Source of the DNA: a virus | Length of the DNA: 55,110 bases | IMG/VR virus record: IMGVR_UViG_3300021197_001923 | Location: 1 to 55,110 of that record | Direction: 5' to 3' (one strand) | In this document: positions 1,405-36,606 of the stretch, piece by piece | Numbering within the stretch: the stretch's first letter is position 1 | How the letters are laid out: every line of letters starts with the position of its first letter | Notes under the pieces: model-generated | What the model was told of the DNA's origin: nothing | The model's database searches: none | The model's input: the letters and a program-made list of their open reading frames with translations, nothing else | Position numbers and translations under genes: made by a program

Positions 1405-3933
1405 ATGACAAAAGCACGGACACTAGCCGATTTTATATCTGACGGTAGCGAGTTCGCTGACGGTACGATCTCTGTGTCGGAGGTGTCAGGTGCTGCCCCT
1501 ACAGCAAGTCCAACTTTTACTGGTACGACAACGCACAGCGGTGTTCTGCTAATGAACACGAACCACATCCAATTCACGGGCAATTTATCTAAGCCAAATG
1601 TTGGAGCGGCAATTTATCGTCCAGCCGCCGATAGTGTTGCGGTTGTTACAAATAACCAAGACAGACTGGTCATCAGCAACACTGAAGTAAATTTCAATGA
1701 AGACAGTCAGGATACTGACTTCCGCATTGAAAGTGACGATGACGCAAACATGTTTTTCTTAGATGCGAACAACAACAAGATCGGCATTCGCTACAATAAT
1801 CCATCAAGCACCCTCCACATTCGTCCATCTGGCGAAGCAAGTTTAACTGTTGGTTCGTCTAATGCAGGAGGCGCACTTCTTGTTCTAGATGGTGATGCTA
1901 ATGGTGACGCAAGTGGTGGTGACTACGCTTACTTGAAGCACACCACCAGTGGAAATCTTATCATTGAAAATCTTGCTCCGTCTGGCACAGAAATTGTTGT
2001 CAATGAAACTGGCGTAAATATGGATTTTCGTGTCGAAAGTGATAATGAAAGCAATATGCTTTTCGTTGATGCGGGAAACAATCGCCTCGGTATTCGCACA
2101 AATGCCCCAGCCTCAACCCTCCACATAGATAGCGACAACGCATCTGGCACAACTTACGGCATTGTGCAAAACGATGGCACAGCCAACACTAATACCATTG
2201 CGGGTTGGGTTATTCGTGATGGTACAACTGTTATGAGTGGCATTAGACGAAGAAGGGATGGATCAGGTTCGCCAGTTGAGCTTGGGAACTTTAGCAACGA
2301 TGAAACTGTTGATCTAGTTCAAAACAATGAACGCAGAATAACTTTGAACACCAGCAGCCATATCATTGTTAATGAACCAGGACTTGCTTCTGACTTTAGG
2401 GTTGAGAGTGACAGCAACACTCATATGCTATTTGTAGATGGGGCTAATAATCGGATTGGTATCAACGCTTCATCACCTCAAAAGACGCTTGAAGTTGTTG
2501 GTGACATACAGCTTGATGCTACGAATGCTTCCCTTTTTCTTAAATCTGGGGCCACTGGTACTTCGGGATTTGTAAACTGGACCTTTAACACGGATGACAG
2601 TGTATTTGCTAAGGCAGGTATAGACTATGATAGCAGAAGTACCGTGGGTTTTCATTTAGATAGCGGCTATCCTATTTCACTTGATGCCTCTATGACTTCT
2701 TCTAGGGGGTTAGACATTCTTAACGGTGGTAGTCTTATTCACCGCATAAACACAGTTGAAAGTGCTTTTAACGAGAATAGCCTTAACCACGACTTCCGTG
2801 TCGAGAGTGACAGCAACACCCATGCGCTGTTTGTGGATGCTGGAAATAATGTTATCGGCACAGGAACATCAACACCAGCATCATACGTTAATTCAGGAGG
2901 TTTTGCTATAAAAGGAGCAACGGCCTCTGACCTATCTTTGGTTGCAAGTAGCGTTTCGGCTGGAAGTAATTCGCATCAAATGCGCTATTTTAATGAAGCT
3001 GGGGCTTCTTACGAAATTGCTAGGACACGGGTAAATGTAGGTGCAGGACAGGTCAATAGAGGTGAGTATCAGTTTGCCGTAAATAATGGCGCTGGATTAC
3101 GAAGATGGCTGGATGTTAATTACACTGGAGATGTTGTATTTAACGCTGACGCTCATGACAGCGACTTTCGGGTTTCGAGTGACGCCCAAAACTATATGCT
3201 GTTTGTGGATGCGGGTGCAGACGCTGTTTGTATAGGCACTAATTCACCAGACCCTAATGGTGGTGTAATGATGGTGCAAACTTTAAACACCCACGCATCA
3301 GGGCCAACTTTTCAAAGCAACGGAACAACTCAGCTTTGGTTGAAAGACAGTGACGCAACAAGCAACACAAGGCTTTGGGGTTTCCAAAATTCTGGCGGCG
3401 CACTTAACTTTCTTTATGCGGATGATGATAAAACAAATAATTTCCGCACACCCATGACAATGTATCGGGGTTCAGATGGAATTGTTATAAACGAAGATAG
3501 CCACGACCAAGACTTCCGTGTCGAGAGTGACGGCAACGCTAATATGTTTAAAGTCGATGCTGGCGAAGACAAAGTTTTGATTGGTACATCAGGCGTTTTA
3601 GCGAAATTTACAAGTGCGCCCCTACAAGTTGGGGGCTTTGCCATAAGAACTATGGGCGTTAGCAGTTCGGCTACTGATACAGGCATAAGTGTAAATGCTG
3701 GGAGTACGGGCATGGGTATGCTTGTGTTTACATCTCGTAACACTTCAAGCGGAACGGCAACTGCTTCAAGTTTGTATTTGCTCAACTTTTATCACGATGG
3801 AAACCATACCCCTGCGGTGTCACACATTTCTGGAAGCAACTATTTAACTTTTTCAAAAAGCGGCAGCAATACCTTAACCATTCAAAATGCATCTGGCGGT
3901 AACTGTACTTGCACGATGATGATGAGTGGATAA
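1405..3933 (+). CDS. Second repeat-rich tail fibre protein
   Basis: 842-residue fibre-like protein. The start at 1405 has an AAGGA 9 nt upstream. The N-terminus (TLADFISDG..., then a PTFTGTTTHSG stretch) is of the kind seen at the head of many marine phage fibres. Five to six modules with the DFR[VI]ESD core recur (nt ~1720, 2024, 2390, 2790, 3162, 3508), separated by variable beta-rich inserts. This suggests a modular adhesin in which inserts can be exchanged. Unlike the preceding gene it lacks an S74 chaperone and ends in a different ~100-residue beta-rich domain finishing with a Cys-containing tail (NCTCTMMM). It lies directly downstream of the S74 fibre, so it may be an alternative or accessory receptor-binding protein. 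The exact virion position is inferred. Confidence 0.8.
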   Translation: MTKARTLADFISDGSEFADGTISVSEVSGAAPTASPTFTGTTTHSGVLLMNTNHIQFTGNLSKPNVGAAIYRPAADSVAVVTNNQDRLVISNTEVNFNEDSQDTDFRIESDDDANMFFLDANNNKIGIRYNNPSSTLHIRPSGEASLTVGSSNAGGALLVLDGDANGDASGGDYAYLKHTTSGNLIIENLAPSGTEIVVNETGVNMDFRVESDNESNMLFVDAGNNRLGIRTNAPASTLHIDSDNASGTTYGIVQNDGTANTNTIAGWVIRDGTTVMSGIRRRRDGSGSPVELGNFSNDETVDLVQNNERRITLNTSSHIIVNEPGLASDFRVESDSNTHMLFVDGANNRIGINASSPQKTLEVVGDIQLDATNASLFLKSGATGTSGFVNWTFNTDDSVFAKAGIDYDSRSTVGFHLDSGYPISLDASMTSSRGLDILNGGSLIHRINTVESAFNENSLNHDFRVESDSNTHALFVDAGNNVIGTGTSTPASYVNSGGFAIKGATASDLSLVASSVSAGSNSHQMRYFNEAGASYEIARTRVNVGAGQVNRGEYQFAVNNGAGLRRWLDVNYTGDVVFNADAHDSDFRVSSDAQNYMLFVDAGADAVCIGTNSPDPNGGVMMVQTLNTHASGPTFQSNGTTQLWLKDSDATSNTRLWGFQNSGGALNFLYADDDKTNNFRTPMTMYRGSDGIVINEDSHDQDFRVESDGNANMFKVDAGEDKVLIGTSGVLAKFTSAPLQVGGFAIRTMGVSSSATDTGISVNAGSTGMGMLVFTSRNTSSGTATASSLYLLNFYHDGNHTPAVSHISGSNYLTFSKSGSNTLTIQNASGGNCTCTMMMSG

Positions 3934-17715: not shown

Positions 17716-17927
17716 CCTCATATCTAACTAAACGACAAGGTGACCAAACCCTGTGTCCAATGTTTATATAGCAATACGCTAGCACTTAATAAAGTTTTAA
17801 ATGCACCAAACTACGCAAAAGTTTACATATTTATATAGCTGTATACACGTTTTTGATTATTGACGATTACAAGTGCACTACAAATTAGTTTAGAAGCATT
17901 TAGGTACATTTTATGTATATTTTACAG

Positions 17928-19790: not shown

Positions 19791-19828
19791 TTTATACCTA
19801 GGTTTATACCTAGGTTTTTATACCTATG
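19791..19828. repeat. Arm-site repeat triplet, left
   Basis: Three direct copies of TTTATACCTAGG (starting 19791, 19803, 19817; the third ends in TATG). The spacing of 12 then 14 nt is repeated exactly in the right-hand triplet. Confidence 0.85.
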
Positions 19829-19953
19829 CAACAAAAAGACCATATTTTATTGGTTTTTTATGGACATTATGAACTTAGGGATAGCTTCCCGCTACCCGCT
19901 CCAAGATATTTTTATCCAATAAAATCAGTTACTTAAACAAACTGACTAGGATA

Positions 19954-19991
19954 ATTATACCTAGGTTTATACCTAGATATTTATACCTAGG
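19954..19991. repeat. Arm-site repeat triplet, right
   Basis: Three copies of TTTATACCTAGG (starting 19954, 19966, 19980) with the same 12/14-nt spacing as the left triplet, 163 bp away in direct orientation. The first copy begins ATTATACC and the second ends TAGA, so drift is small. Confidence 0.85.
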
Positions 19992-20008
19992 TTTTGATCT
20001 ATGCATAC

Positions 20009-20849: not shown

Positions 20850-21284
20850 TCACTCTGGCGGTTTTGCCAGAAGGTTGATGATCTGAATAGCTTGCTTTGA
20901 GACATCATAGAATTTTTCACCGACAGGCACCTTAACGTTTGGTATTACCTCAATGGGAGCGGCCAGCACTGTGTGACGACTAATAATTGCTGCGTGGGTC
21001 ATGCCTTGGTTTAGCACAAAAAAATGGCATGGGCGTTCTGTGAACTTTTTCTTTCGATACGGAATCCGCAGTGTGGGAAAATTGAACTCAGGCCCATGCC
21101 ATCCTAATTTCACTTCAACTTCACAGCCAAAGGATTTGCCCTTGCCTCTCACCAGCAGGTCAACGCCGAAATGGTCAGGGTTTTCGTTGCACTCATAACC
21201 CAACTGTTCCCAAAACTTTTGGGCAGTGAATTTTGCAGCATTATCGTATTGCTCGTAAACATCTCGCTCGAATTGTTTAAGCAC
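20850..21284 (-). CDS. PD-(D/E)XK nuclease-like protein
   Basis: 144 residues, GTG start at 21284 overlapping the stop of the RMF-like gene. Motifs fit a restriction-enzyme-like fold: a helical N-terminus with aromatic residues (FTAQKFWEQLGYECNEN), then DHFGVDLLV (candidate Asp) and, after a short loop, CEVEVK (the E-x-K of the active site). It could be a host-DNA-degrading nuclease or a repair nuclease. The family is not specified by the sequence. It closes the nucleotide-metabolism operon and lies downstream of ribonucleotide reductase, which fits recycling of host DNA (inference). Confidence 0.6.
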   Translation of the reverse strand: MLKQFERDVYEQYDNAAKFTAQKFWEQLGYECNENPDHFGVDLLVRGKGKSFGCEVEVKLGWHGPEFNFPTLRIPYRKKKFTERPCHFFVLNQGMTHAAIISRHTVLAAPIEVIPNVKVPVGEKFYDVSKQAIQIINLLAKPPE

Positions 21285-21447
21285 GGCGCCGCTCCTGGTT
21301 TTTCAGGTATGCGCAGTTCCAGCCTCGAATCCATTCACGGGCGTAAAATGATTGCGGCCTATATGGGCACCGATCATCGGTTAAAAAAGCGTTCCAGCCA
21401 ACTTGGTAGGGCCGCTCTGCGGGGAAAAAACGTTTCATGTACTGCAT
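21277..21447 (-). CDS. RMF/CrpP-like ribosome-modulation-factor homologue
   Basis: 56 residues encoded between ribonucleotide reductase and the nuclease, with GGGGGAG about 10 nt before the ATG. The layout matches ribosome modulation factor: G-W-x-A-F, then D-R-CPY, then R-E-W-x-R-GW and a basic C-terminus. E. coli RMF has the same G...A, CPY, R..W..GW order in 55 residues. RMF binds near the 16S 3' end and drives 100S ribosome hibernation. A phage copy could dampen host translation or alter anti-SD access, but this is inference. Its stop overlaps the next gene's GTG start by 8 nt. Confidence 0.75.
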   Translation of the reverse strand: MQYMKRFFPAERPYQVGWNAFLTDDRCPYRPQSFYAREWIRGWNCAYLKNQERRRA

Positions 21448-26299: not shown

Positions 26300-26328
26300 C
26301 GTATATCCGAATCTTGTACCCAAGTCAA
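26300..26328 (-). promoter_or_regulatory. Sigma70-like promoter of the SSB/exonuclease operon
   Basis: On the minus strand TTGACT (26328-26323), 17 nt, TATACG (26305-26300). The 14-bp palindrome at 26330-26343 abuts the -35 hexamer. Confidence 0.65.
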
Positions 26329-26329
26329 C

Positions 26330-26343
26330 TATAGTGCACTATA
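26330..26343. promoter_or_regulatory. Early-gene operator palindrome (site 1)
   Basis: Perfect palindrome TATAGTGCACTATA directly upstream of the -35 of the SSB/exonuclease operon promoter. One of five intergenic copies in the genome. Confidence 0.75.
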
Positions 26344-26357
26344 TATTGCACAATAAA

Positions 26358-28451
26358 TTAGGTGATGAGCCAGTTTTTTCCAGTCTCAATTTCGATGCCA
26401 AGGGGTAATACAAATTCGTAGTCCCAACGCTCAGAGGCTTCTTCCAGAACACCTGACATCGCCCAAGTAAGCACTTCGGCAACAGTATCAATTTCATCAG
26501 GATGTGTATCCACTACCAAGCTATCGTGTACGGTCAGGATTAGCTTTGAATGCAGTTTTAATTCTTTAAACCGCCGATACGCTCGAACGCATGAAAGTTG
26601 CACCAGATCATTACCAAAACCCTGCACCGGATAATTTTTGACTTGTGTGGCGTTGCTTATGCTTCCGTTGCCATAGCGTTTAGCATTAGGCCAATGATAC
26701 TGGCGCCCAGACGGCGTTTGTATCAAGCCGTTCTTAACTACACCATCCATCAGCTTTTTATGATACTTGGCGAGACCAGGATATATCTTCATAAACTCTT
26801 TAAAATACGCCTGTATGTGAGGTTCTGTGCCCATGCCCTGCCCTCCAAAAAGCGGGCTAAAAGTCCACTTTTTTACGCTACCTCTAAGCTCTTTTGTAAC
26901 CTCTTCAGGTTTGCAGCGGTGTATAATGGTGGCCGTCTGCTTATGGATGTCCTTGCTGTTGCAAATATCATCGATGATTTGTTGATCCCGTGATAATTCT
27001 CCAGCGCAAACCCATTCAAGACTCGCAAAATCCGACTCTGTTATCAGTCCGTTTTCAAATCTGGACACAACGCATTTGCGGATAGGAAATCCACGCTTTG
27101 GCTGGTTTTGGAAGTTCGGGTTAGATGAACTTAGCCGACCTGTGCTAGTTACACATTGGTTAAAATTTGTGTGCAAAAAACCGCTGCTGCGTGTCCAGGT
27201 TTGAATGCCTTTTACGAAGGAATCCAAATAAACAGAGACAGCGTTAAGCCGGCTAATTTTTTCCAAAAACTCTACCGCCAAATCATTACCTTTTAGGCGA
27301 GCTTGGGAGATCAAAATTTGGATCGTATCTTTATCCGATTTAAATCCGTGAATGGCGGCAAACGTGGCATCAATGGGAGTAAGTTTTAACCCTGCCACTT
27401 TGCCGGTGGATTGATACAAGGCACCTTTGCCCTGGCAATCAGGGCACTTGGTTTTGTTTTTGTAAGGATCGCCATTCTTTTTCCATTTCTGGATCAAGCC
27501 ACGGCCATCACAAGTATCACAGCAAATAGCCATAGTCTTGTACGCCACTTCAGTGGTTTTGCGTACAGCTTGTGAAAACTCAGACTTATTCATACGTGGC
27601 GGGCGCAAAGCCTTACCATTTGCACCAACACCTATATTAAAGGTTTCTCGGTGTTTTTGACGATCGGTGACTTCCCGACTGTAAATAATTTTTGTGCGAT
27701 CAATCCCAGAATTTAAATTGCAAATCGTATCGCCCATGACCTCTTCAACAATTTCATTAAGTCGTTTTTCGAGCTCCACTTTTTCTGCTGCAAAAGACAT
27801 CTCAACATCAGCTAAAGCCTTGAGATCAACCTTGATGCCGTTGCGCTCCATATCAACAAGGCAAAGCAACATTTCACGGGAAAGTTTGACAATGTTGCGC
27901 AGCGAACGGTTTTCAGATTGTGCGAAATCATCCAGCTGCCGCAGGTAGACTTCGCCACAAGCAACAACATCTGCTTCGGCGTAAGGAATAACAACGTCAT
28001 GTAAGGGCATTTCTTCAAAGCCAATGCCTTTTTTCCAAAGCTCCGCAGTCAGATCTGATTTTTTTTGTGTAACGCCCCGACGCTCGGCTGTGGCTTTAAG
28101 CGATATTTCTCGCCGTTGCCCTTTGCTTAGTATGTATTCGTGCAACATTGTGCATGATATTAGGGGAGGAAGCTCAAAACCCATTTCCAAAAGCCAAAGC
28201 GCATCAAATTTACTGTTGTGGCAAATAAGCTCATCAGCCTCGGATAAGGCCTTTCTAAGCCGGCTTGGATCATCCGGTTTGTCTTGCTCGACATGATGGA
28301 ATACTAAGCTGCAAACGTCTTCGACACTATCCCAATTCAAAAACCCAAAATGTGCGCTAACGCATTTATTCTGGCGGTTAAATGGACTGTTATCAATTTT
28401 GCCGTCTAAGCGCTCTACGCTGACCTCCAAGTCCAAAACTAGCCGCTTCAA
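26358..28451 (-). CDS. Family-A DNA polymerase with DnaJ-type zinc-finger insert
   Basis: 697 residues. The N-terminal 3'-5' exonuclease has D7-x-E9 (LVLDLEVS), CHNSKFDALWL and YAEADVV. The polymerase domain has motif A (SDFASLEWVCAGELSRD), motif B (RGSVKKWTFSPLFGGQG) and motif C (LTVHDSLVVD). Between them, residues ~305-345 hold two CxxCxGxG units (CDTCDGRG and CPDCQGKG), the zinc-binding pattern of the DnaJ central domain; this insert is the hallmark described for phage HMO-2011. The start is TTG at 28451, overlapping the stop of the 59-residue gene upstream (TTGA), so translation is probably coupled. It replicates the phage genome together with the helicase and primase. Confidence 0.95.
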   Translation of the reverse strand: MKRLVLDLEVSVERLDGKIDNSPFNRQNKCVSAHFGFLNWDSVEDVCSLVFHHVEQDKPDDPSRLRKALSEADELICHNSKFDALWLLEMGFELPPLISCTMLHEYILSKGQRREISLKATAERRGVTQKKSDLTAELWKKGIGFEEMPLHDVVIPYAEADVVACGEVYLRQLDDFAQSENRSLRNIVKLSREMLLCLVDMERNGIKVDLKALADVEMSFAAEKVELEKRLNEIVEEVMGDTICNLNSGIDRTKIIYSREVTDRQKHRETFNIGVGANGKALRPPRMNKSEFSQAVRKTTEVAYKTMAICCDTCDGRGLIQKWKKNGDPYKNKTKCPDCQGKGALYQSTGKVAGLKLTPIDATFAAIHGFKSDKDTIQILISQARLKGNDLAVEFLEKISRLNAVSVYLDSFVKGIQTWTRSSGFLHTNFNQCVTSTGRLSSSNPNFQNQPKRGFPIRKCVVSRFENGLITESDFASLEWVCAGELSRDQQIIDDICNSKDIHKQTATIIHRCKPEEVTKELRGSVKKWTFSPLFGGQGMGTEPHIQAYFKEFMKIYPGLAKYHKKLMDGVVKNGLIQTPSGRQYHWPNAKRYGNGSISNATQVKNYPVQGFGNDLVQLSCVRAYRRFKELKLHSKLILTVHDSLVVDTHPDEIDTVAEVLTWAMSGVLEEASERWDYEFVLPLGIEIETGKNWLIT

Positions 28452-28627
28452 ACTTTAAACCCAGCAAGTTTTGCTACAATTTTAGTCTGCACATTAATCA
28501 GTGCTTGAATAAGCTCGACCTGCTGCTCAAGCAGAGGCTCCAACTCCGTTGTTTGGCGCTTTGTGTATTCTTGCTGTTTCTTACGCAAAAGCTCGTGATA
28601 TTCTTCCATTTCATCAGGCCCAATCAT
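28448..28627 (-). CDS. Small coiled-coil protein between helicase and polymerase
   Basis: 59 residues, almost entirely charged amphipathic helix (EEYHELLRKKQQEYTKRQ..., LLEQQVELIQALINVQTK). It overlaps the helicase stop (ATGA) and the polymerase's TTG start, so it bridges the two genes translationally. It may be an accessory factor or a helicase-polymerase linker, or simply a coupling ORF. No family is recognised. The overlap at both ends is the main support. Confidence 0.6.
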   Translation of the reverse strand: MIGPDEMEEYHELLRKKQQEYTKRQTTELEPLLEQQVELIQALINVQTKIVAKLAGFKV

Positions 28628-29844
28628 TCGACATACCGCCCGATGTCAGGCTCAATTGAACAGCAAATTGTGCCGTGAAAGCCGCTGATTTTGTTTTTGG
28701 AGATATGAAGAAAGCGGGTGTAATCTACGCTTTCGTCGTCAGCATCACCGTTGTGTTTTCCGATACCCAAAATGATGTCAGCTTCGGCGGCTTTTCCGGT
28801 TTTTGAGCCTTCGGCCATGGAGAAATCTATGCGAGTTTTGCCCTCACCATCCGCCGAGGCTTGGCTTACTCCGATCACTGCACACTGATGGCGCTTGGCC
28901 AATTCTCGCAAACGGCGATACAGTTCCCTTAATCGCTCATGTGTCGCTGTATATTGGCCAGAGATGCCAACCTTGTCAGCTTGATCAATGATCAGCACAT
29001 CCGGTTTCATTTTAGACATGTAGCTGTCAATCTTATCCAGATCCCAATCCACCGTGTCCTGCATATCCAAATTATCTGCGATGCGGTTGAACGCAATCAT
29101 AGCGGTGCTTGGGTCTTCAGCAATTTCGTCACGAGTCATACCCGCAGCTGCTTGTATTGAGCGTAACATTGTTCGGGTAGTTTCTTCTTCGTTACCCAAA
29201 ATTAGAACTTTGGCGCCCTGCTCACAGAACCCTCCAGGCCCAGCGCATAGCGAAACCAAGAATGTTGTCTTTCCGGTTTCAGGACGGGCTAGCACAATTA
29301 GAAATTCGCCGCTGCCAACGCCATATAGATGGCGTGACAGGGTGCGGATATTAAATTCCCAGCGATTGTCATTGGAAGATTTCGCAAGAAGCGTATCCAA
29401 ATCTTTAGTGGTTGGATCGCCAAAATCATCAGGGGAATAATCCTCGGCCACACGATCCAGCAATGCCCTTAGCAAGCCCATGGCGCTGTTATCACCTTCT
29501 GCCATGTTGATGCCGAGGCTGCTGACCTGTCTGCCGATCTCTTTACGCCACAATTTGTCGATCACGTCGTGCGCAATATCTTGCGCAATCTCATTGGACT
29601 TCCGGACGTCATCAAGCAGGTCCATGAAGTCGGCCTTTTCGCTATTTGTAGCGATTGGATGATCCGCCAGCCACAATGACAACAAGTCATCCGTACTTAA
29701 ATCGTGGTTGTAACGATCATGGGCCATCCCCATCAAATCGAATAACTCCGCAGCGTCTTCAGAAAATATTGACCGCTTGAGGCGTGGCCTATTTGTTTTG
29801 AAGGTATCGTTGCAGAGGAGAGTTTTTAACAATTGTGATTCCAT
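28624..29844 (-). CDS. DnaB-like replicative helicase
   Basis: 406 residues. RecA-type core: Walker A at residues 186-193 (ARPETGKT), Walker B at 283-288 (VLIIDQ) and the DnaB-type motifs IGVSQASADGEGKTRI and AEADIILGI further on. The N-terminal ~150 residues are helical, as in DnaB N-domains. It unwinds DNA ahead of the polymerase. The primase is a separate gene here, unlike T7 gp4. The start lies 25 nt downstream of operator site 2, with a moderate -35/-10 pair (TTGTCT, CTATAA) overlapping that palindrome. It heads the helicase/59-residue/polymerase unit. Confidence 0.93.
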   Translation of the reverse strand: MESQLLKTLLCNDTFKTNRPRLKRSIFSEDAAELFDLMGMAHDRYNHDLSTDDLLSLWLADHPIATNSEKADFMDLLDDVRKSNEIAQDIAHDVIDKLWRKEIGRQVSSLGINMAEGDNSAMGLLRALLDRVAEDYSPDDFGDPTTKDLDTLLAKSSNDNRWEFNIRTLSRHLYGVGSGEFLIVLARPETGKTTFLVSLCAGPGGFCEQGAKVLILGNEEETTRTMLRSIQAAAGMTRDEIAEDPSTAMIAFNRIADNLDMQDTVDWDLDKIDSYMSKMKPDVLIIDQADKVGISGQYTATHERLRELYRRLRELAKRHQCAVIGVSQASADGEGKTRIDFSMAEGSKTGKAAEADIILGIGKHNGDADDESVDYTRFLHISKNKISGFHGTICCSIEPDIGRYVE

Positions 29845-29868
29845 CGTATCTCCAACTTATGTGCAAAT

Positions 29869-29882
29869 TATAGTGCACTATA
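29869..29882. promoter_or_regulatory. Early-gene operator palindrome (site 2)
   Basis: Perfect TATAGTGCACTATA upstream of the helicase start, between a TTGTCT and a TATAAT-like hexamer on the minus strand, so it overlaps the probable helicase promoter. A terminator lies just upstream. Confidence 0.75.
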
Positions 29883-29895
29883 GTTTGAGATAGAC

Positions 29896-29927
29896 AAAAA
29901 GAAAAGCCCCAATCCTACGACGGGGCT
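29896..29927 (-). terminator. Intrinsic terminator after the 261-residue gene
   Basis: Minus strand: stem AGCCCC / GGGGCT with an 11-nt loop followed by TTTCTTTTT. It separates the primase unit from the helicase unit. Confidence 0.8.
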
Positions 29928-29955
29928 GCTCTATTTGCGTTATTGAAATGTGGGT

Positions 29956-30741
29956 TTAGGCCGACAGTTCATTGTATGCTGGAATTTCTTCGAGGAGCCG
30001 TTTTTGATCCTCTTCGTCAAGTCCGTTTTCTTTAAGCTCGTTAATAACACTCCGCCACTTTGGTGACTTCTTAACCGTTGTCCAATGAACTTTATCACTC
30101 TTGATGCTTATGTTTTGCAACATTTCCGTCAATCGTTGCAGACGTTCGGGGTCAATCTTTCTAGCCCATTCCGTTTTAGAAAAAGTACGAAGGTCGAGGG
30201 TAAATGTTTTGGTGGTAATGCCACTCCTACTACGGGAGCCAGCAGTCTTACCTTTACCACTAACACCGCCAACTTCGACTGTGGCGTTCTGCACTGCCAA
30301 GCTTGGCTTCATATTTTCTGATGTTAAACTGGGGGCATCTACCATCATACCTTGCTTCTCGGCTTTTTGCCGCAGCATTAAATACCGCTTTCGCTCTTCA
30401 TGAGATAGTCCCATACCAAGCTTAACACGCTTACCCATTTCAGTAAGGCGTTCGATTTGCGCCTTTGATAACTTAGCATTTTCGCCCCTACCACCACGGA
30501 AAGTCATCATATCAATAGGCCCTGTAGGACCACGGCGATCTCTAAAATGTGATTGTGGATTTTCTACGCTTACGTGTTTGGATAACTCGAACTCACCATC
30601 CATTGCACCATCGGCTAATCGTTCTGCAAACAGCGCCATATGCTTTTCAAGTGCTGTCTCCAAAGCACCGAACATCTTGTAATTCTCTTGGTCAACGTCA
30701 AAGTCAAATGCGATCACGCCTCTGAACTGTTTCCTGGCCAT
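29956..30741 (-). CDS. Basic early phage protein of unknown function
   Basis: 261 residues, with GGAG 8 nt before the ATG. It is rich in Arg and Lys. It has an N-terminal beta stretch (RGVIAFDFDVD), a charged middle with a helical MLRQKAEKQG region and a low-complexity Gly/Ser/Arg linker (KGKTAGSRSRSGITTKT), then a helical C-terminal domain. It follows the primase by 25 nt in the same unit, so a role in replication or transcription control is likely. No domain is recognised. Confidence 0.6.
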   Translation of the reverse strand: MARKQFRGVIAFDFDVDQENYKMFGALETALEKHMALFAERLADGAMDGEFELSKHVSVENPQSHFRDRRGPTGPIDMMTFRGGRGENAKLSKAQIERLTEMGKRVKLGMGLSHEERKRYLMLRQKAEKQGMMVDAPSLTSENMKPSLAVQNATVEVGGVSGKGKTAGSRSRSGITTKTFTLDLRTFSKTEWARKIDPERLQRLTEMLQNISIKSDKVHWTTVKKSPKWRSVINELKENGLDEEDQKRLLEEIPAYNELSA

Positions 30742-30766
30742 TATAGGGTCTCCGCCTGAGTTTTTT

Positions 30767-31594
30767 TTATTTATTATTTATTTGTTTAACTGATAAGTGC
30801 TGCGCATCATTGGTCTCCTCCAAACGCAACACACGCTTAACTTCACATATGCCCAATTCTTTTGGGTCTCTGTCTGTAATTCTCAGAAATACACTGCCTC
30901 TAACTTTTTTTATTAGCTTCACAGCTTTGCTGCTTGCATCGTTGTCTAACAATATAAATATATTTACATATATTTGTAAAGCATTTCTTAGTGCACTAGT
31001 TAAGTTAGTCCCTAGCAGCGCAACACCAGCCAAGTCTGGGATGCGGGATATGGAGCAGGCTGAAGCTGCGTCTTCAACCAAGACTGCGTTTTTACCCTTC
31101 CCCACGTGAATACCTTCACTCGTATCGCCGTAAGTAATCCATTTAGGACCGGCGCCTAATAAATTGCGCCCCACAGCACCAGTCAAAGATTTATTATAAA
31201 ACAGCACCCGCTTTTCACGAGGTGCATATCGCATCCGTATCAATCCCGATTCATATGCATCGATTGAATTTACCGAGCGCAGATATTCCAGAGCGTGGGG
31301 CACATTAGCCAAGCTGGTAGTGATTTCAGGAATTTGTAACTTTGGCTTGCTGCGCACCTTTTCAGGCCCGTGGTCGTGATAACGTTTGGCTGCTGTCAGG
31401 GATCTCTCGCCTTGATAACTGCCCCGCACCTCACAGCTGGCCCTGAAGCAATTCCAAAGCAGTTGGCCTGATGCAAGCCGATCGATGGTAAATTTCTTCT
31501 GCCCGCCACAAAACGGGCAATCCAAGGTTTTGCGCTCGCCCTCTGCAATCTTAATGCGGCGGACCTCGGTCAATTGTTCACGATAGCTATACAT
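30767..31594 (-). CDS. DNA primase with zinc-binding and Toprim domains
   Basis: 275 residues. The ATG at 31594 is preferred because GAGG lies 7 nt upstream; another ATG at 31600 is only 1 nt from it. The N-terminal zinc finger is C-P-F-C...C-F-R-A-S-C (residues ~25-55). A Toprim fold follows, with VLVEDAASA (catalytic acidic residue) and FILLDNDASSKA (the DxD). This is the DnaG/T7-gp4 primase type, without the helicase. The T-run of an intrinsic terminator ends 11 nt upstream of the start, so its expression appears to depend on readthrough or an unseen promoter. Confidence 0.88.
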   Translation of the reverse strand: MYSYREQLTEVRRIKIAEGERKTLDCPFCGGQKKFTIDRLASGQLLWNCFRASCEVRGSYQGERSLTAAKRYHDHGPEKVRSKPKLQIPEITTSLANVPHALEYLRSVNSIDAYESGLIRMRYAPREKRVLFYNKSLTGAVGRNLLGAGPKWITYGDTSEGIHVGKGKNAVLVEDAASACSISRIPDLAGVALLGTNLTSALRNALQIYVNIFILLDNDASSKAVKLIKKVRGSVFLRITDRDPKELGICEVKRVLRLEETNDAQHLSVKQINNK

Positions 31595-31605
31595 TTTCAT
31601 ACCTC

Positions 31606-31643
31606 ATAAAAAAACCTCGCCAGAGAAAGCAGCTGGCGAGGTT
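31606..31643 (-). terminator. Intrinsic terminator immediately before the primase (possible attenuator)
   Basis: Minus strand: 10-bp stem ACCTCGCCAG / CTGGCGAGGT with a 9-nt loop and seven T. It lies between the DUF932 operon and the primase, ending just before the primase ribosome-binding site. No good promoter was found between the hairpin and the gene. Confidence 0.9.
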
Positions 31644-31706
31644 CTTGGTCATCCCTGCTTGCAAGAAGGCGGAGTCAAAACCTTCGGCTTGCAGGGGCGC
31701 TGGTGA

Positions 31707-31931
31707 TCAGTCAGCGCTTGGCAACTTGTGTACTGGCACACCGTCCCTGAACCAGCCGTGATCTTCGGCAATTTTGGTAACAGCGTTGATGTGAATCTGA
31801 AGGTCATCGATCAATTCATCACAGTGCATCGACATCGTGGTCTGTTCAGAATGCCCGCCGTTTAAAAAGACAGGGCCACCCTTCACGTATTTAACCAGGT
31901 TTTCGTAGTTTTGGATCATATCACGATTCAT
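31707..31931 (-). CDS. Small early protein
   Basis: 74 residues, start overlapping the previous stop (ATGA). Contains HCDELIDDLQIHINAVTKIAEDHGWFRDG, similar in flavour to the C-terminal half of its upstream neighbour (helix with a HxxDxxNxxxKIAxEHG-like pattern). The two may therefore be distant paralogues. No known family. It is the last gene of the DUF932 operon, ahead of the terminator at 31643. Confidence 0.6.
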   Translation of the reverse strand: MNRDMIQNYENLVKYVKGGPVFLNGGHSEQTTMSMHCDELIDDLQIHINAVTKIAEDHGWFRDGVPVHKLPSAD

Positions 31932-32200
31932 GCTTTCACCAATTGCAATGCAGCGTTGTGATCCCCCGCAGTGCCCGTGCTGTTAGCCTCGTGCAGCCAT
32001 GTCTGATCTAAAACCAAACCGTGCTCCCGTGCGATTTTCATCATCATATTAGCAGTGTCCGTCATGTGAATTGCACTTTCAAAATGCGCCTCAACAAATT
32101 CCTTTACGAGCACCGCAACCTCATGACGTTGAGATTTAGTCGTGGTGGTTGCACCTAGGGTTTCCAGCAGTCCCTCCACAGATTTCACAGAGTTTTTCAT
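31928..32200 (-). CDS. Small early helical protein
   Basis: 90 residues from the ATG at 32200, with GAGGGGG 7 nt upstream. It overlaps the stop of the Zn-finger gene. The sequence is helical (RHEVAVLVKEFVEAHFESAIHMTDTANMMMKIAREHG). The pattern around KIAREHG recurs as KIAEDHG in the next gene, suggesting duplication. No function is recognised. It is cotranscribed with DUF932. Confidence 0.6.
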   Translation of the reverse strand: MKNSVKSVEGLLETLGATTTTKSQRHEVAVLVKEFVEAHFESAIHMTDTANMMMKIAREHGLVLDQTWLHEANSTGTAGDHNAALQLVKA

Positions 32201-32388
32201 ACACAAACCCCCTCTGTTGAAGCCGCACGAGATGGCGCATTACAACCACAGCAGTAAACCGTGCTTTGGTCGTAGGTGGACATAAAGCGCTGATCGTTTT
32301 GGTTCCAACGAGTGCGAAACTTAAAGAACACCCGATTGTTGCCGCAATTGACGCAATTGTGGGCTGCGTAGCCAGCAAATTTCTGCAT
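32197..32388 (-). CDS. Small zinc-finger protein
   Basis: 63 residues, start coupled to the DUF932 stop (TAATG). Two Cys pairs, CVNCGNN near residue 12 and YCCGC near residue 46, would form one zinc ribbon. The surrounding sequence is basic and aromatic (RVFFKFRTRWNQ). It is probably a nucleic-acid- or protein-binding regulator, but the family is not recognised. Confidence 0.65.
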   Translation of the reverse strand: MQKFAGYAAHNCVNCGNNRVFFKFRTRWNQNDQRFMSTYDQSTVYCCGCNAPSRAASTEGVCV

Positions 32389-33341
32389 TATGACCAATCC
32401 TTCCAAGCTGTGCTCGAAACGATCTTGCGCACGAAATCTTCACGCTGCGACATACCAACCGCTTCATTGTCTTTGTTGGCGCTGTCTTTGACGTAAAAAC
32501 GTTCATTATTGTGCGTACAAAACGCTGTCAGCGCTGAATATGCCGCCAGCTTTGTCTGCCCACGAGTATTCACCTCATCGGAAAATTGCTCAATGATTTT
32601 GGTTTGAAAGTTGTCAGAAATAAGACCGCTCTGATGAAGCAAAACTGTGAAATCCGTTTCGCTTATCGCAGTGCCATTCCATTCTCGCAACTGAGCGATA
32701 CGCAACCCAAAATCCGCAACTTCCTTCCCAATAAACTGCTGTAGGCCATCAGTGCTGAAGCTGTTAGTATGGCCTTTGCTCCAAACCGAGGAGGCATCAA
32801 ACACCATGGCATTATCACAGAAGGTATCACGGGCGCCTACAGCCACTTTAACGCTGTGTGTTGCCTGATTTTCGACACGCACATCCAATTCAACACGGAT
32901 CATTTCTCCAGTCGGGTGCTGTATTGCTGCCCCTAGGCTGGGGAAGCGGTATTCAGCACGGAAAAAATTCATGTTTGAGATTTTCTCAGATAATTTCACC
33001 GAAGCATGAACATGGGGCGGCATCGCCATCCGAGTGGCAGATTCAATCGCCTCGTGCAGTTCTTGCATCTGAACGATACGGTAATCTTTGCCGGCAAAAT
33101 GGATAGCTTCGCCTGTATCTTTGCGAACTATTGCGCTCTGCTGATCCATGGGGATTGGCATCACAATTCCGTCCATAATCTTATTGGGCGTTTCGTCCTC
33201 AATATAGAGCGGGCGCTTTACCAACTCGATATTGAGCAAATCCAATTTGGGCCATGCAGCAGTCTTTGCACCCATCGCAGCTTTAACTGCTTGCGGTGTG
33301 AACAATGTGCGGGGCGCTTCTTTAAGAACAGGGTAAGTCAA
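32388..33341 (-). CDS. DUF932 family protein
   Basis: 317 residues if started at the TTG at 33341, which has AGGAG 8 nt upstream. An ATG at 33389 is possible but lacks a ribosome-binding site at usual distance and lies only ~13 nt from the predicted transcription start. The body matches DUF932 proteins of phages and plasmids (IVRKDTGEAIHFAGKDYRIVQ near the N-terminus, VGARDTFCDNAMVF in the middle, then AQLREWNG). Its function is unknown; some members are linked to plasmid or phage DNA replication or anti-defence, unproven. It heads a four-gene operon controlled by a strong promoter and operator site 3. Confidence 0.8.
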   Translation of the reverse strand: MTYPVLKEAPRTLFTPQAVKAAMGAKTAAWPKLDLLNIELVKRPLYIEDETPNKIMDGIVMPIPMDQQSAIVRKDTGEAIHFAGKDYRIVQMQELHEAIESATRMAMPPHVHASVKLSEKISNMNFFRAEYRFPSLGAAIQHPTGEMIRVELDVRVENQATHSVKVAVGARDTFCDNAMVFDASSVWSKGHTNSFSTDGLQQFIGKEVADFGLRIAQLREWNGTAISETDFTVLLHQSGLISDNFQTKIIEQFSDEVNTRGQTKLAAYSALTAFCTHNNERFYVKDSANKDNEAVGMSQREDFVRKIVSSTAWKDWS

Positions 33342-33410
33342 GATGGGTACTCCTAATGTTATAATCTTGATTTTGGTCAGGTTGGCCATTCAGCCGATAT
33401 GAGTGCCTCC

Positions 33411-33438
33411 GTTATACACAAGATTCGGTACGTGTCAA
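33411..33438 (-). promoter_or_regulatory. Strong sigma70 promoter of the DUF932 operon
   Basis: Minus strand: TTGACA (33438-33433), 16 nt, TATAAC (33416-33411). The operator palindrome abuts the -35, the same geometry as at the SSB operon. Confidence 0.75.
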
Positions 33439-33440
33439 TC

Positions 33441-33454
33441 TATAGTGCACTAGG
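33441..33454. promoter_or_regulatory. Early-gene operator palindrome (site 3)
   Basis: TATAGTGCACTAGG: one half is perfect, the other has two changes at the edge. It lies directly upstream of the -35 of the DUF932 promoter. Confidence 0.7.
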
Positions 33455-33566
33455 TTTAGCAAATTAATGTGCTGGGTATTGTGTTTTACAGCGCCAGACA
33501 GAAATTTCCAATATACATGCGATTTTCCTCGTAAACTTGTTTGAAAGCTCGCAAGTCATGCATGGA

Positions 33567-33588
33567 TTTTGTAACAGTGATGTGACAA
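33567..33588. promoter_or_regulatory. Operator-like dyad, copy 2
   Basis: Exact inverted copy of the 22-bp element at 17989-18010, with internal dyad TTGTNACA-N4-TGTNACAA. It lies in the gap between the integrase-2 unit's terminator and the DUF932 promoter. Confidence 0.55.
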
Positions 33589-33605
33589 TTTTGTGTGATT
33601 TGAGT

Positions 33606-33633
33606 GAAAAAGAGGCCGCTAGGCCCCTTTTTT
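33606..33633 (-). terminator. Terminator of the integrase-2 unit
   Basis: Stem GAGGCC / GGCCCC (one mismatch) with a GCTA loop. It is flanked by T-runs in both reading directions, so it may act bidirectionally. Confidence 0.7.
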
Positions 33634-33772
33634 AACTCTTTCCGCCGTATTTCAGGTCGTACTGTTGGCAGAGGTATAACATTTCTTGGTGCAGTTGTTC
33701 AAGAAGCCGGTCCTCTGCCGATTTACGCTTCTGTATGCGGTCCAATGATGCTGGACGTTCGAGTTTACCCAT
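33632..33772 (-). CDS. Small basic protein coupled to integrase 2
   Basis: 46 residues; the ATG at 33772 overlaps the last codons of integrase 2. It is highly charged and helical (RIQKRKSAEDRLLEQLHQEM), ending in KYGGKS. Its size, basic charge and coupling would suit an excisionase or accessory DNA-binding factor, but there is no recognisable winged-helix, so this is only a suggestion. Confidence 0.5.
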   Translation of the reverse strand: MGKLERPASLDRIQKRKSAEDRLLEQLHQEMLYLCQQYDLKYGGKS

Positions 33773-34853
33773 ATGTCGCCTCACGTTTGCTTTGAGCAGC
33801 TTCGGCCTGACGGCGGGTGGTCTGCACATAAGTATTCAGCACTGCACGGGATCGATGGCCAGTGATACTTCTCAGCTGATCTTCGCTACAGCCAGCATCT
33901 CCAAGCTCGGTCGCAGCACTGCGGCGCAAGTCAGATATTTTGAGGTTGTGGTCGAGGCCGGCAAGCTTACGCACCAATTCTGCTTTCTTGCGGTATAACC
34001 TTCCAGAATACCGCTCGCCTGTACCCTCGTATTTAGCAATGGTCTCGTCATGCTTGCAGTTTGATAGCAGCTGTATTTGGCGGATGCGCTCCCGCAACAT
34101 CGCTGTCGCAGGGATGTCCATGTCGGCGCCGGTCTTTTGCTGCTTAAATACGAAAAAACCGTCTTGATAGTTAGACCAAGTCATATTGCGACAATCGCTT
34201 GGACGCTGGCCCAATTCAAATGCCATAGCAGCGATCGTACCGATACTTGTAAGCCCGTTGGAATCTGCAGTTGCGATAAACATATTCAATTCGTCACGAT
34301 GCCAGCGAGTGGTACGGGGCGAAGTTGGTAGCAATGTCAGATCTGTGAATGGGTTGCTCACGTTGAAATCAAAGCTTGGCGCCTTGTTCCAGATCCGCCG
34401 CAAAACCTTTATCACCTGATTGGCCGTGGCCAAGGATTTCTGCTTGCGCAACTCCTTATATATAGCTTCCGCCTGTCGTGGGCGGATATTGGCAACCAGC
34501 TGCTCTGTAAATGGCTTACTGCCAATTAGCGTTGCTTCCAGCACAATACCCAACATCGTGGCGTAATTTCGTTGGCTATTCTCTGCTAAAGCGTCCCAGC
34601 TGCTCGAATTTTGATAGGCTAGAACCAGGGCGCCAACAGTGCTGTGAGTACGATCCTGAAACCGCTCACCTGACTCCTTATATATACCCAGCGCTTTAAT
34701 CGCCTCGTCGATGCGGGCCAAGGCGTCTTCCTTCCGGTCGTATTGCTCGTATTTAAAACCCAGTTTGTCAGACAGGGATTTACTCGGCTTGAAGGCGTGG
34801 GCAATCTTGCCACTCTTCAGATTAATCTCTTTATAGTGCGGAATTTTGGTCAT
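33765..34853 (-). CDS. Second tyrosine recombinase (integrase 2)
   Basis: 362 residues from the ATG at 34853 (GGAG 7 nt upstream; an in-frame ATG at 34901 lacks one). Catalytic set: R217 (ELGQRPSD), K240 (QQKTG), R310 in SDLRRSAAT, H333 (TGHRS) and Tyr342 (NTYVQTT). The usual first His of the HxxR box is Ser307. The N-terminal core-binding domain covers ~70-165. Unlike integrase 1, no attP-like structure was found nearby. It lies within the early cluster, downstream of operator site 4. It may act in excision, inversion, dimer resolution or replication-related recombination. Confidence 0.9.
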   Translation of the reverse strand: MTKIPHYKEINLKSGKIAHAFKPSKSLSDKLGFKYEQYDRKEDALARIDEAIKALGIYKESGERFQDRTHSTVGALVLAYQNSSSWDALAENSQRNYATMLGIVLEATLIGSKPFTEQLVANIRPRQAEAIYKELRKQKSLATANQVIKVLRRIWNKAPSFDFNVSNPFTDLTLLPTSPRTTRWHRDELNMFIATADSNGLTSIGTIAAMAFELGQRPSDCRNMTWSNYQDGFFVFKQQKTGADMDIPATAMLRERIRQIQLLSNCKHDETIAKYEGTGERYSGRLYRKKAELVRKLAGLDHNLKISDLRRSAATELGDAGCSEDQLRSITGHRSRAVLNTYVQTTRRQAEAAQSKREATYG

Positions 34854-34880
34854 TACTGTCTCCAGATAGATATGGCACAA

Positions 34881-34909
34881 AGCATAGGTCCCGCACGTCA
34901 AAACGTCAA
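34881..34909 (-). promoter_or_regulatory. Putative promoter of integrase 2
   Basis: Minus strand: TTGACG (34909-34904), 17 nt, TATGCT (34886-34881). Operator site 4 lies 25 bp upstream. Confidence 0.55.
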
Positions 34910-34925
34910 TCCGTAAATTTAGCTA

Positions 34926-34954
34926 TTGCATAACATAGTGCACTACAGTAAAAA
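34926..34954 (+). promoter_or_regulatory. Putative rightward promoter with operator in its spacer
   Basis: TTGCAT (34926-34931), 17 nt, TAAAAA (34949-34954). The operator at 34934-34947 fills the spacer. It would transcribe the structured segment at 34961-35100. Confidence 0.4.
34934..34947. promoter_or_regulatory. Early-gene operator palindrome (site 4)
   Basis: CATAGTGCACTACA, between the diverging integrase-2 promoter and the rightward promoter. Confidence 0.65.
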
Positions 34955-34960
34955 TGATTC

Positions 34961-35100
34961 TGTACCCAGCGGATAAGCAATCTCCTCCCATCATGCTGTT
35001 GGGTACAAAGGGCAAATCTTCTACGCTCTTGTCCTTTTTGCTAGTTGGTGCCGTTTCTGACCTTTTTCTCTCAATTCTACTCCAGAAACGGCACCTTTTT
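34961..35100 (+). ncRNA. Candidate small structured RNA ending in a terminator
   Basis: Two strong hairpins in tandem. The first pairs TGTACCCA (34961-34968) with TGGGTACA (35000-35007). The second pairs GGTGCCGTTTCTG (35047-35059) with CAGAAACGGCACC (35083-35095) and is followed by five T, as in an intrinsic terminator with a long loop. No convincing reading frame with a ribosome-binding site is present. A promoter-like sequence with an operator sits just upstream. It might be a short regulatory or antisense RNA made in the early or lysogenic phase. It could also simply be a leader or terminator. Confidence 0.45.
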
Positions 35101-35217
35101 CACTCGCACGTCAAACGCATTTGTATGCTCATATGTATATACAGCCTTCTGACAACTTATCCTGACATAACGCTGAACTTTGCAATTAGTGATTTCACGT
35201 AAAATTTATTTCTTTTT

Positions 35218-35231
35218 CATAGTGCACTATG
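35218..35231. promoter_or_regulatory. Early-gene operator palindrome (site 5)
   Basis: Perfect palindrome CATAGTGCACTATG about 107 bp before the foreign module's first gene. The rest of the 35101-35337 gap shows no gene. A weak TTTACA lies shortly downstream. Confidence 0.7.
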
Positions 35232-35337
35232 TTTTGCTTTACAAATTTAGACCTTTTTGGGATTCTGATTGCACCGGCCGGCGCCCGACCAGCGCTGCTT
35301 TGGCCGGCTCATATCTAGCAAAAAGGAAAACCCAACC

Positions 35338-36162
35338 ATGGGATACAATTTCAGAAACACGGAAACGGCAACGCCGGCATTGCTCAACGGCAATGTGAAT
35401 TTAACCTTAAAAAGCCGAAACAAGAAAACCGGTGATATACCGGTATCAACCAGCGGAAAGCAAACATGCCCCGACTCTTGCCCACTAAAAGCAAGCGGCG
35501 CTTGTTATGCCATGACGGGCCCGCTTGGCTTATTCTGGCATAAAGTATCGATCGGCAATGCCGGCGCAACATATGACCATTTTGTAAAACAAGTGGCCGC
35601 TTTGCCTGATGGTCAATTGTGGCGCCACAATCAAAGCGGAGACTTGCAACCATCATACACCGATCGGGAAACGATCGACGCACCGAAATTGCTGGCATTG
35701 GTTGAAGCAAATCGGGGCCGCAAGGGTTTTACATTCTCGCATTTCGACCCGATCGCAAACCCGCTCAACAATTATGCGCTGGCCATGGCCAATAATAACG
35801 GCTTCACGATCAATTTAAGCGGAAACGATGTAAACCACGCCGATCGGCTGGCAGATACAAATTGCGGGCCGGTTGTTTCAGTTTTGCCGCTTGAATATGA
35901 GCGCAGAACAGAACGGACGCCGGCCGGCAAGCAATGGGCCGAAACGATCGCCGAATATAAAGACCGGCTGGCAAGCTTGCCCAAAGCAACACCGGGCGGG
36001 CGCCGCTTGGTTGTTTGTCCTGCCACCTATTCGGACGATGTTTCTTGTAAGACTTGCGGGCTTTGCCAAAAGCAACGGGCAACAATCATCGGTTTTCCTG
36101 CACATGGCACAAGCCGGCGCAAAGCCGATGCCGTCGCAAAGGGAGAATTGACCCATGCCTGA
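35338..36162 (+). CDS. Cys-rich phage/plasmid protein (DUF7227/Gp88-like)
   Basis: 274 residues from the ATG at 35338, with AAGGA ~10 nt upstream. The N-terminal third has a Cys cluster, TCPDSCPLKASGACYAMTG, and the C-terminal part has another, VCPATYSDDVSCKTCGLC, spaced as in metal- or Fe-S-binding folds. HFDPIANPLNNYALAM lies between them. I recall related proteins (DUF7227; similar in plan to mycobacteriophage Gp88) without known function. Base composition is markedly different from the rest of the phage (rich in CGATCG, GCCGG, GGCC), indicating recent acquisition. Its stop overlaps the next start by 8 nt. Confidence 0.7.
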   Translation: MGYNFRNTETATPALLNGNVNLTLKSRNKKTGDIPVSTSGKQTCPDSCPLKASGACYAMTGPLGLFWHKVSIGNAGATYDHFVKQVAALPDGQLWRHNQSGDLQPSYTDRETIDAPKLLALVEANRGRKGFTFSHFDPIANPLNNYALAMANNNGFTINLSGNDVNHADRLADTNCGPVVSVLPLEYERRTERTPAGKQWAETIAEYKDRLASLPKATPGGRRLVVCPATYSDDVSCKTCGLCQKQRATIIGFPAHGTSRRKADAVAKGELTHA

Positions 36163-36424
36163 TATTTATTGTTCAAAATGTGGCGAGCCATGGGACGCCG
36201 ATGAATTGCACGACGTGCCGGCGATCAATCCCGATCGGGGCGCCGGTGTCTTAACTTACAAGCAAGCGGCCAAAATGTTTCCGGCCTATGGTTGCGGGCT
36301 TTGGGTCGATCGTTTCGACGGTGGCGCTTTTACACCGTGCACGGCGCCGATCGTCGATGATGTCAGGGCAGAACATGCATCCGTCATGCATTCAATAAGC
36401 CCGTTTCCGGATGATTGGTTGTGA
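36155..36424 (+). CDS. Small zinc-ribbon protein of the foreign module
   Basis: 89 residues, overlapping the DUF7227-like gene. It opens with C6-SKC9 (IYCSKCGEPWDADELHD) and has two further Cys downstream (YGCGLWVD..., FTPCTAP) that could complete a zinc site. It shares the unusual CGATCG/GGCGCC-rich composition. The function is unknown; it probably works with its larger neighbour. Confidence 0.65.
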   Translation: MPDIYCSKCGEPWDADELHDVPAINPDRGAGVLTYKQAAKMFPAYGCGLWVDRFDGGAFTPCTAPIVDDVRAEHASVMHSISPFPDDWL

Positions 36425-36426
36425 TA

Positions 36427-36606
36427 ATGTATTTACTCGCATGGACAATTAACCACGGCCAAAACAATCTGATCGACCATCAGATAATAGAGGATGAGCC
36501 GCAAGCTGTTGCGCAATGGGTTGATTCAATCCAGACGCAAGCCGACGTTCATTGTTGGGCCGCTTGCAAGATATTAGAGGCGAGCGAGCCGCATTGGATA
36601 GAATAA
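36427..36606 (+). CDS. Small protein of the foreign module
   Basis: 59 residues, ATG 3 nt after the previous stop (a GTG at 36421 would overlap it). A mixed alpha/beta-looking sequence with DHQIIEDEPQAVAQWVDSIQTQADVHCW; two Cys. No family is recognised. The tight spacing and shared composition make it part of the same acquired operon. Confidence 0.55.
   Translation: MYLLAWTINHGQNNLIDHQIIEDEPQAVAQWVDSIQTQADVHCWAACKILEASEPHWIE

Follow-up and report, generated by a model that had tools for sequence, protein, structure and literature searches.

The closest precedent for the system described here is that of Cluster A mycobacteriophages (L5, Bxb1), in which the operator motif differs by subcluster, co-varies with the repressor and defines immunity groups (PMC6550527, PMC9283540). 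Their sites, called stoperators, are asymmetric, 13 bp long, mostly in one orientation, number up to ~30 per genome and are bound by a monomeric helix-turn-helix (HTH) repressor (PMC6550527, PMC9283540). We compared with this precedent a window of 55,110 nt, which represents the entire stretch of viral DNA analyzed (IMG/VR record IMGVR_UViG_3300021197_001923). As in Cluster A, one set of short sites per genome occurs at early promoters and inside genes, and a Cas4-family gene is present in both. However, there are only 5–7 sites here, all of them dyads, each located at a promoter or at one fixed intragenic place. The window has six exact dyad cores instead of up to ~30 asymmetric 13-bp sites, and none of the early and right-arm genes compared with PHROGs and Pfam matched an HTH immunity repressor. 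Because the form and the number of sites differ and no such repressor was found, we do not file the system as a Cluster A-type member, even though by analogy it may work like one.

Lambdoid phages with CI/Cro also have tandem dyad operators at early promoters, one over the -10 element and another upstream of the -35 element. In contrast, the sites described here are spread over 9 kb, their 12-bp tandem spacing is closer than that of lambdoid dimers, and no CI/Cro homolog was seen among the genes scanned. Tandem-site ribbon-helix-helix repressors (Arc, MetJ, CopG) use short dyad sites repeated at about one DNA turn, which the tandem sites described here may resemble; no ribbon-helix-helix protein was recognized in the window.

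Judged by its genes, the window is an integrase-bearing HMO-2011-type phage. Its polymerase is 56–60% identical to those of Roseobacter phages CRP-235, CRP-212, CRP-738 and CRP-3 and 37% identical to that of HMO-2011. It is a family A polymerase with the DnaJ-like CXXCXGXG insert, encoded in the common primase/helicase/polymerase order, as described for the group (PMC9038755). Its genes include two integrases, a DnaB-like helicase, primase, Cas4-like exonuclease, RusA, RNR and MazG. The polymerase gene is whole in the window; in five relatives (L007, L008, L009, L010 and L013; for example, L009 5197–7295) a break after about residue 129 leaves two ORFs that overlap at ATGA, with most of the exonuclease part separated from the remainder. 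Integrases are carried by some members of the group (PMC9038755, PMC6918029), and CRP-3, which has the operator set of the CRP clade, integrates into tRNA-Met of strain FZCC0040 (PMC6918029). No repressor is named in PMC9038755 or PMC6918029 (the word itself is absent from the text of the latter), and no published operator for the HMO-2011-type group was found in the literature searched. A polymerase query of the species-genome collection returned no prophage of the group, and a helicase query returned only distant relatives (34–35%) in metagenome-assembled genomes.

Putative operator sites and predicted promoters in the window

The earlier note reported a near-perfect 14-bp palindrome at five coordinates. 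The palindrome, TATAGTGCACTATA, is present at all five; it is perfect at 26330 and 29869 and has two mismatches each at 33441, 34934 and 35218, for which 'near-perfect' is generous. The term does fit the 10-bp core TAGTGCACTA, exact in all five. The window contains six exact cores against 0.02 expected, and none of 100 shuffled sequences had as many, so that a single word recurs at several early promoters well above chance. The sixth core (30989–30998) lies within the primase gene. The description of every copy as intergenic and preceding an early unit is therefore right for the five listed sites, which lie upstream of the genes named, and wrong for the sixth.

The first operator (26330–26343) is directly upstream of the -35 element of the SSB promoter, and L006 has the identical sequence at its orthologous site (9734); a weaker tandem operator, TATATTGCACAATA (26342–26355), adjoins it at a distance of 12 bp. 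The operator preceding helicase and polymerase (29869–29882) also has a weaker 12-bp-spaced copy beside it, TATGTGCAAATT (29858–29869). Tandem sites at this spacing recur in L006 and L007, and at the helicase in L005 (8749/8761) and L006 (6378/6390). Further operators are located upstream of the DUF932 operon (33441–33454; orthologous sites at L006 2390, L009 974, L013 953 and L007 4131), between integrase 2 and the rightward transcript (34934–34947; L006 1026, L005 3690) and upstream of the DUF7227 (R35269) module (35218–35231; core exact, two mismatches in the 14-mer). The same core at each of these sites is what would be expected if, as proposed earlier, one regulator recognizes a dyad-symmetric site at several early promoters, that of the DUF7227 module included. 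Compared by inspection with the consensus sequences, the site fits neither the NrdR box, whose half-sites are in the reverse order, nor the alphaproteobacterial SOS box. Far from the remaining sites, non-coding AAGTGCACTA (17871–17880) matches the core at 9 of 10 positions, which may be chance. Two clusters of TTTATACCTAGG repeats, spaced by 12–14 bp, flank the upstream side of integrase 1 (19792–20003); they may serve as arm sites for the integrase or as operators for a second regulator.

The predicted SSB/exonuclease promoter (TTGACT-17-TATACG, 26300–26328, minus strand) is a match to consensus only and fails a stricter promoter scan, and the predicted DUF932 promoter (TTGACA-16-TATAAC, 33411–33438, minus strand) was read directly from the sequence. 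The identical geometry noted earlier at these two promoters is confirmed: the distance from the palindrome center to the first base of the -10 element is 31 nt at both SSB (8+6+17) and DUF932 (9+6+16). The corresponding distance is 32 nt in L005, L006 and L009. An overlap with the helicase promoter had been noted as well, and the site indeed covers the predicted helicase -10 element, as it does throughout the clade of the window (the W clade); in L007, for example, the operator lies over the -10 of TTGACA-17-TACACT. The SSB operator abuts the -35 element at constant spacing in the W clade and lies within the promoter spacer in the CRP clade.

Putative operator words of related phages

Exact copies of the 14-mer were found in 30 stretches of viral contigs, and recognized relatives were only in the L006 and L012 contigs. 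These two genomes have the window core in the divergent integrase region, before DUF932, both before and inside primase, before helicase and after polymerase. Among the relatives first fetched, the others of similar polymerase identity have no window core at the corresponding sites. Instead, different palindromes occupy these places in them (before helicase, SSB and integrase, and inside primase): CCAATATATTGG or CTAATATATTAG in L004/L005, CTAATACACTAG in L009/L013, TTAGTGTAATA in L007/L008 and CTAGTGTATTGG in L003. The word of the CRP clade of cultured roseophages is CACYTARYTARGTG, which CRP-212 and CRP-3 also have in their right arms. At one and the same place, CRP-235, CRP-738 and CRP-3 have ~750–860 bases without annotated genes (L046 48879–49631, L048 48727–49532 and L049 48354–49211), and in CRP-3 this stretch terminates in an operator-like promoter, CACCTAACTGTTGACC. 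The expected conservation upstream of orthologous early genes is thus found by position, and by sequence only in L006 and L012. A regulon private to the window genome is ruled out; across integrase-bearing HMO-2011-type roseophages the sites are kept and their sequence is swapped by lineage. This goes beyond the earlier note. A different word at the same switches is expected for a shared switch whose specificity varies between phages. The half-sites of the relatives' words are related (YTARTR), which suggests one family of regulators.

To assess within-genome coherence, 80 loci with a polymerase alignment were fetched; 31 dereplicated genomes entered the helicase/SSB test and 19 the integrase test. 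The statistic was the summed best 11-base match between the helicase-upstream stretch and the post-polymerase stretch. Matches within the same genome exceeded those to foreign genomes, with none of 20,000 permutations reaching the observed sum; the preference was not seen in L068, L080, L090, L132 and L135. Similarly, the integrase-upstream stretch matched the other two stretches of its own genome (0 of 20,000 permutations). There is no homology between the helicase-upstream stretch and the post-polymerase stretch, so that relatedness alone does not produce such a match. The sites thus occupy orthologous promoters and share a coherent word within each genome. As read from these sequences, this is a real, conserved regulon of the whole group, in which the operator sequence changes by lineage.

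The operator inside primase behaves in the same manner. L006 and L012 keep the core at the codons where the window has it, and in L004, L005, L006, L009, L012 and L013 these codons hold each relative's own operator. The site follows operator type, being exact in the window, L004, L006 and L013, and both DNA and protein vary with it; one and the same codon position has ACT AGT GCA CTA in the window, ACC AAT ATA TTA in L005 and TCT AAT ACA CTA in L009. With an operator in its codons, primase clearly exemplifies a protein sequence altered by a regulatory site. Across the group as a whole, the primase site pairs only weakly with the operators of its own genome (190 of 20,000 permutations) because the CRP clade has no operator match at this position; for the W clade alone the value is 33 of 5040. 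The 60-nt bin with the window site is 77% AT compared to 53% overall, and throughout the W clade this bin is 68–87% AT compared to 52–53%. A predicted promoter (TTTACA-18-TATATT, 30951–30980, minus strand, 10 of 12 matches) lies 13 nt past the operator center; promoter-like matches in this region are no more frequent than in shuffled sequences, and a promoter next to this operator is suggestive only.

The DUF7227 module of the window (35269–36606; Pfam E-value 2.7e-81) and its counterpart in G005/L008 share 93% identity, which makes them far closer than the rest of the genomes. The idea that the regulon captures this acquired module is borne out in part. It agrees with L006 and L007, where relatives of R35269 are preceded by an operator of the type used elsewhere in that genome or by a weak form of that type. 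It does not agree with L005, a CCAATATATTGG-type genome whose sole AGTGCACT (3480–3530), a window-type core, precedes the DUF7227 gene, as would be expected if L005 had acquired the module from a phage with the operator type of the window.

Mode of control and alternative readings

We propose that the palindromes are operators bound by one phage-specified dimeric regulator. It would switch the replication, SSB/exonuclease, DUF932, integrase and DUF7227 units as a set, most likely by repression, within a lysogeny/immunity or early-shutoff circuit. Operator and regulator would have diverged jointly in each lineage, such that the sites stay and their sequence changes. We put the probability of this reading at about 0.62. 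Repression is the simplest reading of the direction of control, since the sites either cover the helicase -10 or lie directly next to the -35 elements of SSB and DUF932; at all three promoters a bound protein could block polymerase, and every position is compatible with a repressor. At SSB and DUF932, the location upstream of -35 would suit an activator as well. An activator or a dual regulator could turn on SSB, DUF932 and integrase from upstream of -35 and turn off helicase over its -10. The SSB -10 is weak, and the SSB operator is centered ~31–32 nt before it, about -43 from the start, constantly across genomes; class II activators bind at this position, as does lambda CI at PRM. Against such a role, the SSB operator of the CRP clade sits in the promoter spacer, a repressor position, the helicase operator overlaps -10 throughout the W clade, and a dimer abutting -35 would block polymerase too. 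We regard an activator or a dual regulator as unlikely.

About equally improbable is a host transcription factor, whose sites would differ in sequence because the hosts differ. Such a factor had been among the sources of the regulator considered earlier, and it would agree with the lack of a recognized phage repressor in the gene scans. A host protein could also explain the half-site CACYTA common to three phages of host strain FZCC0040, but the full words of these phages differ, mainly in the flanks. Moreover, relatives of equal polymerase identity have different words, each coherent within its genome, and primase codons are altered to fit them. A word that is coherent within a genome and yet different between close relatives makes a phage-specified regulator more likely than a host factor. 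The sites also cluster around replication genes, the one in primase lies in an AT-rich patch and integrase genes are nearby, all of which might be expected of replication or structural elements, such as origin iterons or sites for primase or recombinase. That the palindromes are such elements and not transcriptional operators is nevertheless very improbable: over 9 kb, each transcription unit has one site, at a fixed distance to promoter hexamers. DUF932 and the DUF7227 module are preceded by sites as well, as is a right-arm gene in CRP phages.

If the palindromes do act as operators of a phage-specified repressor, the operator words predict between which phages of the same host a lysogen of one should be immune to the other. 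The lineage-specific operator map also names the bait DNA for finding the regulator.

Candidate regulator

The absence of a recognizable CI/Cro/LexA-type protein, pointed out earlier, holds for the subset of ORFs, among the early and right-arm genes, that was compared with PHROGs and Pfam; none of these matched CI/Cro/LexA or an HTH repressor. The best candidate is h29956 (29956–30741, minus strand), flanked in the window by the primase and helicase operators. Its first ~90 residues correspond to the gp07 family, and its C-terminal part is variable. The gene lies between primase and helicase throughout the group; the gp07 profile matches 60 of 61 loci, and four CRP proteins of 65–96 residues match the N-domain of h29956. 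A tblastn search of phage records with gp07 matched these four CRP phages only, with nothing in HMO-2011, CRP-1 and other distant members. In the annotations of HMO-2011, CRP-1 and HTVC033P, primase and helicase adjoin or overlap.

Similarity of gp07 tracks that of the operators even when polymerase and helicase are accounted for (partial r 0.26, 1 of 5000 permutations). Primase similarity does so nearly equally (partial r 0.24, 0 of 5000), and linkage may explain the gp07 correlation. As primase is adjacent and holds an operator in some genomes, gp07 is a candidate only. Structure and profile searches assigned h29956/gp07 to no known fold, family or recognizable DNA-binding fold, and the profile search of solved structures returned nothing for it. 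The structure of h29956 was predicted poorly with eight relatives (pLDDT 54, pTM 0.25). The short gp07 was predicted with local confidence (pLDDT 88, pTM 0.65); it matched no solved fold and, in a viral library, one uncharacterized protein at a weak E-value of 0.05. We weakly favor the N-domain of h29956 as the regulator. It is a doubtful extension that group-restricted gp07 (~67 residues) might represent a new sequence-specific DNA-binding immunity regulator, co-evolving with its operators, including the one in primase codons, and dividing these marine phages into immunity groups.

Other genes were rejected as the regulator. Similarity of integrase 2, SSB and DUF932 does not follow operator type, and h32197, Zn-ribbon-like and with the look of a plain accessory gene, occurs only in genomes with the window word and is absent from other operator types. 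An Rfam search found no RNA family. Two further small ORFs were observed on the minus strand. One, between helicase and polymerase (28448–28627, 59 residues), has a match only in G005 (71%) among the relatives compared. The other (21277–21447) encodes a 56-residue protein with a sub-threshold match to RMF, the ribosome modulation factor (Pfam E-value 4e-4, 20.9 bits against a cut-off of 27.9), and is 58–78% conserved in G001, G002, G003 and G006.
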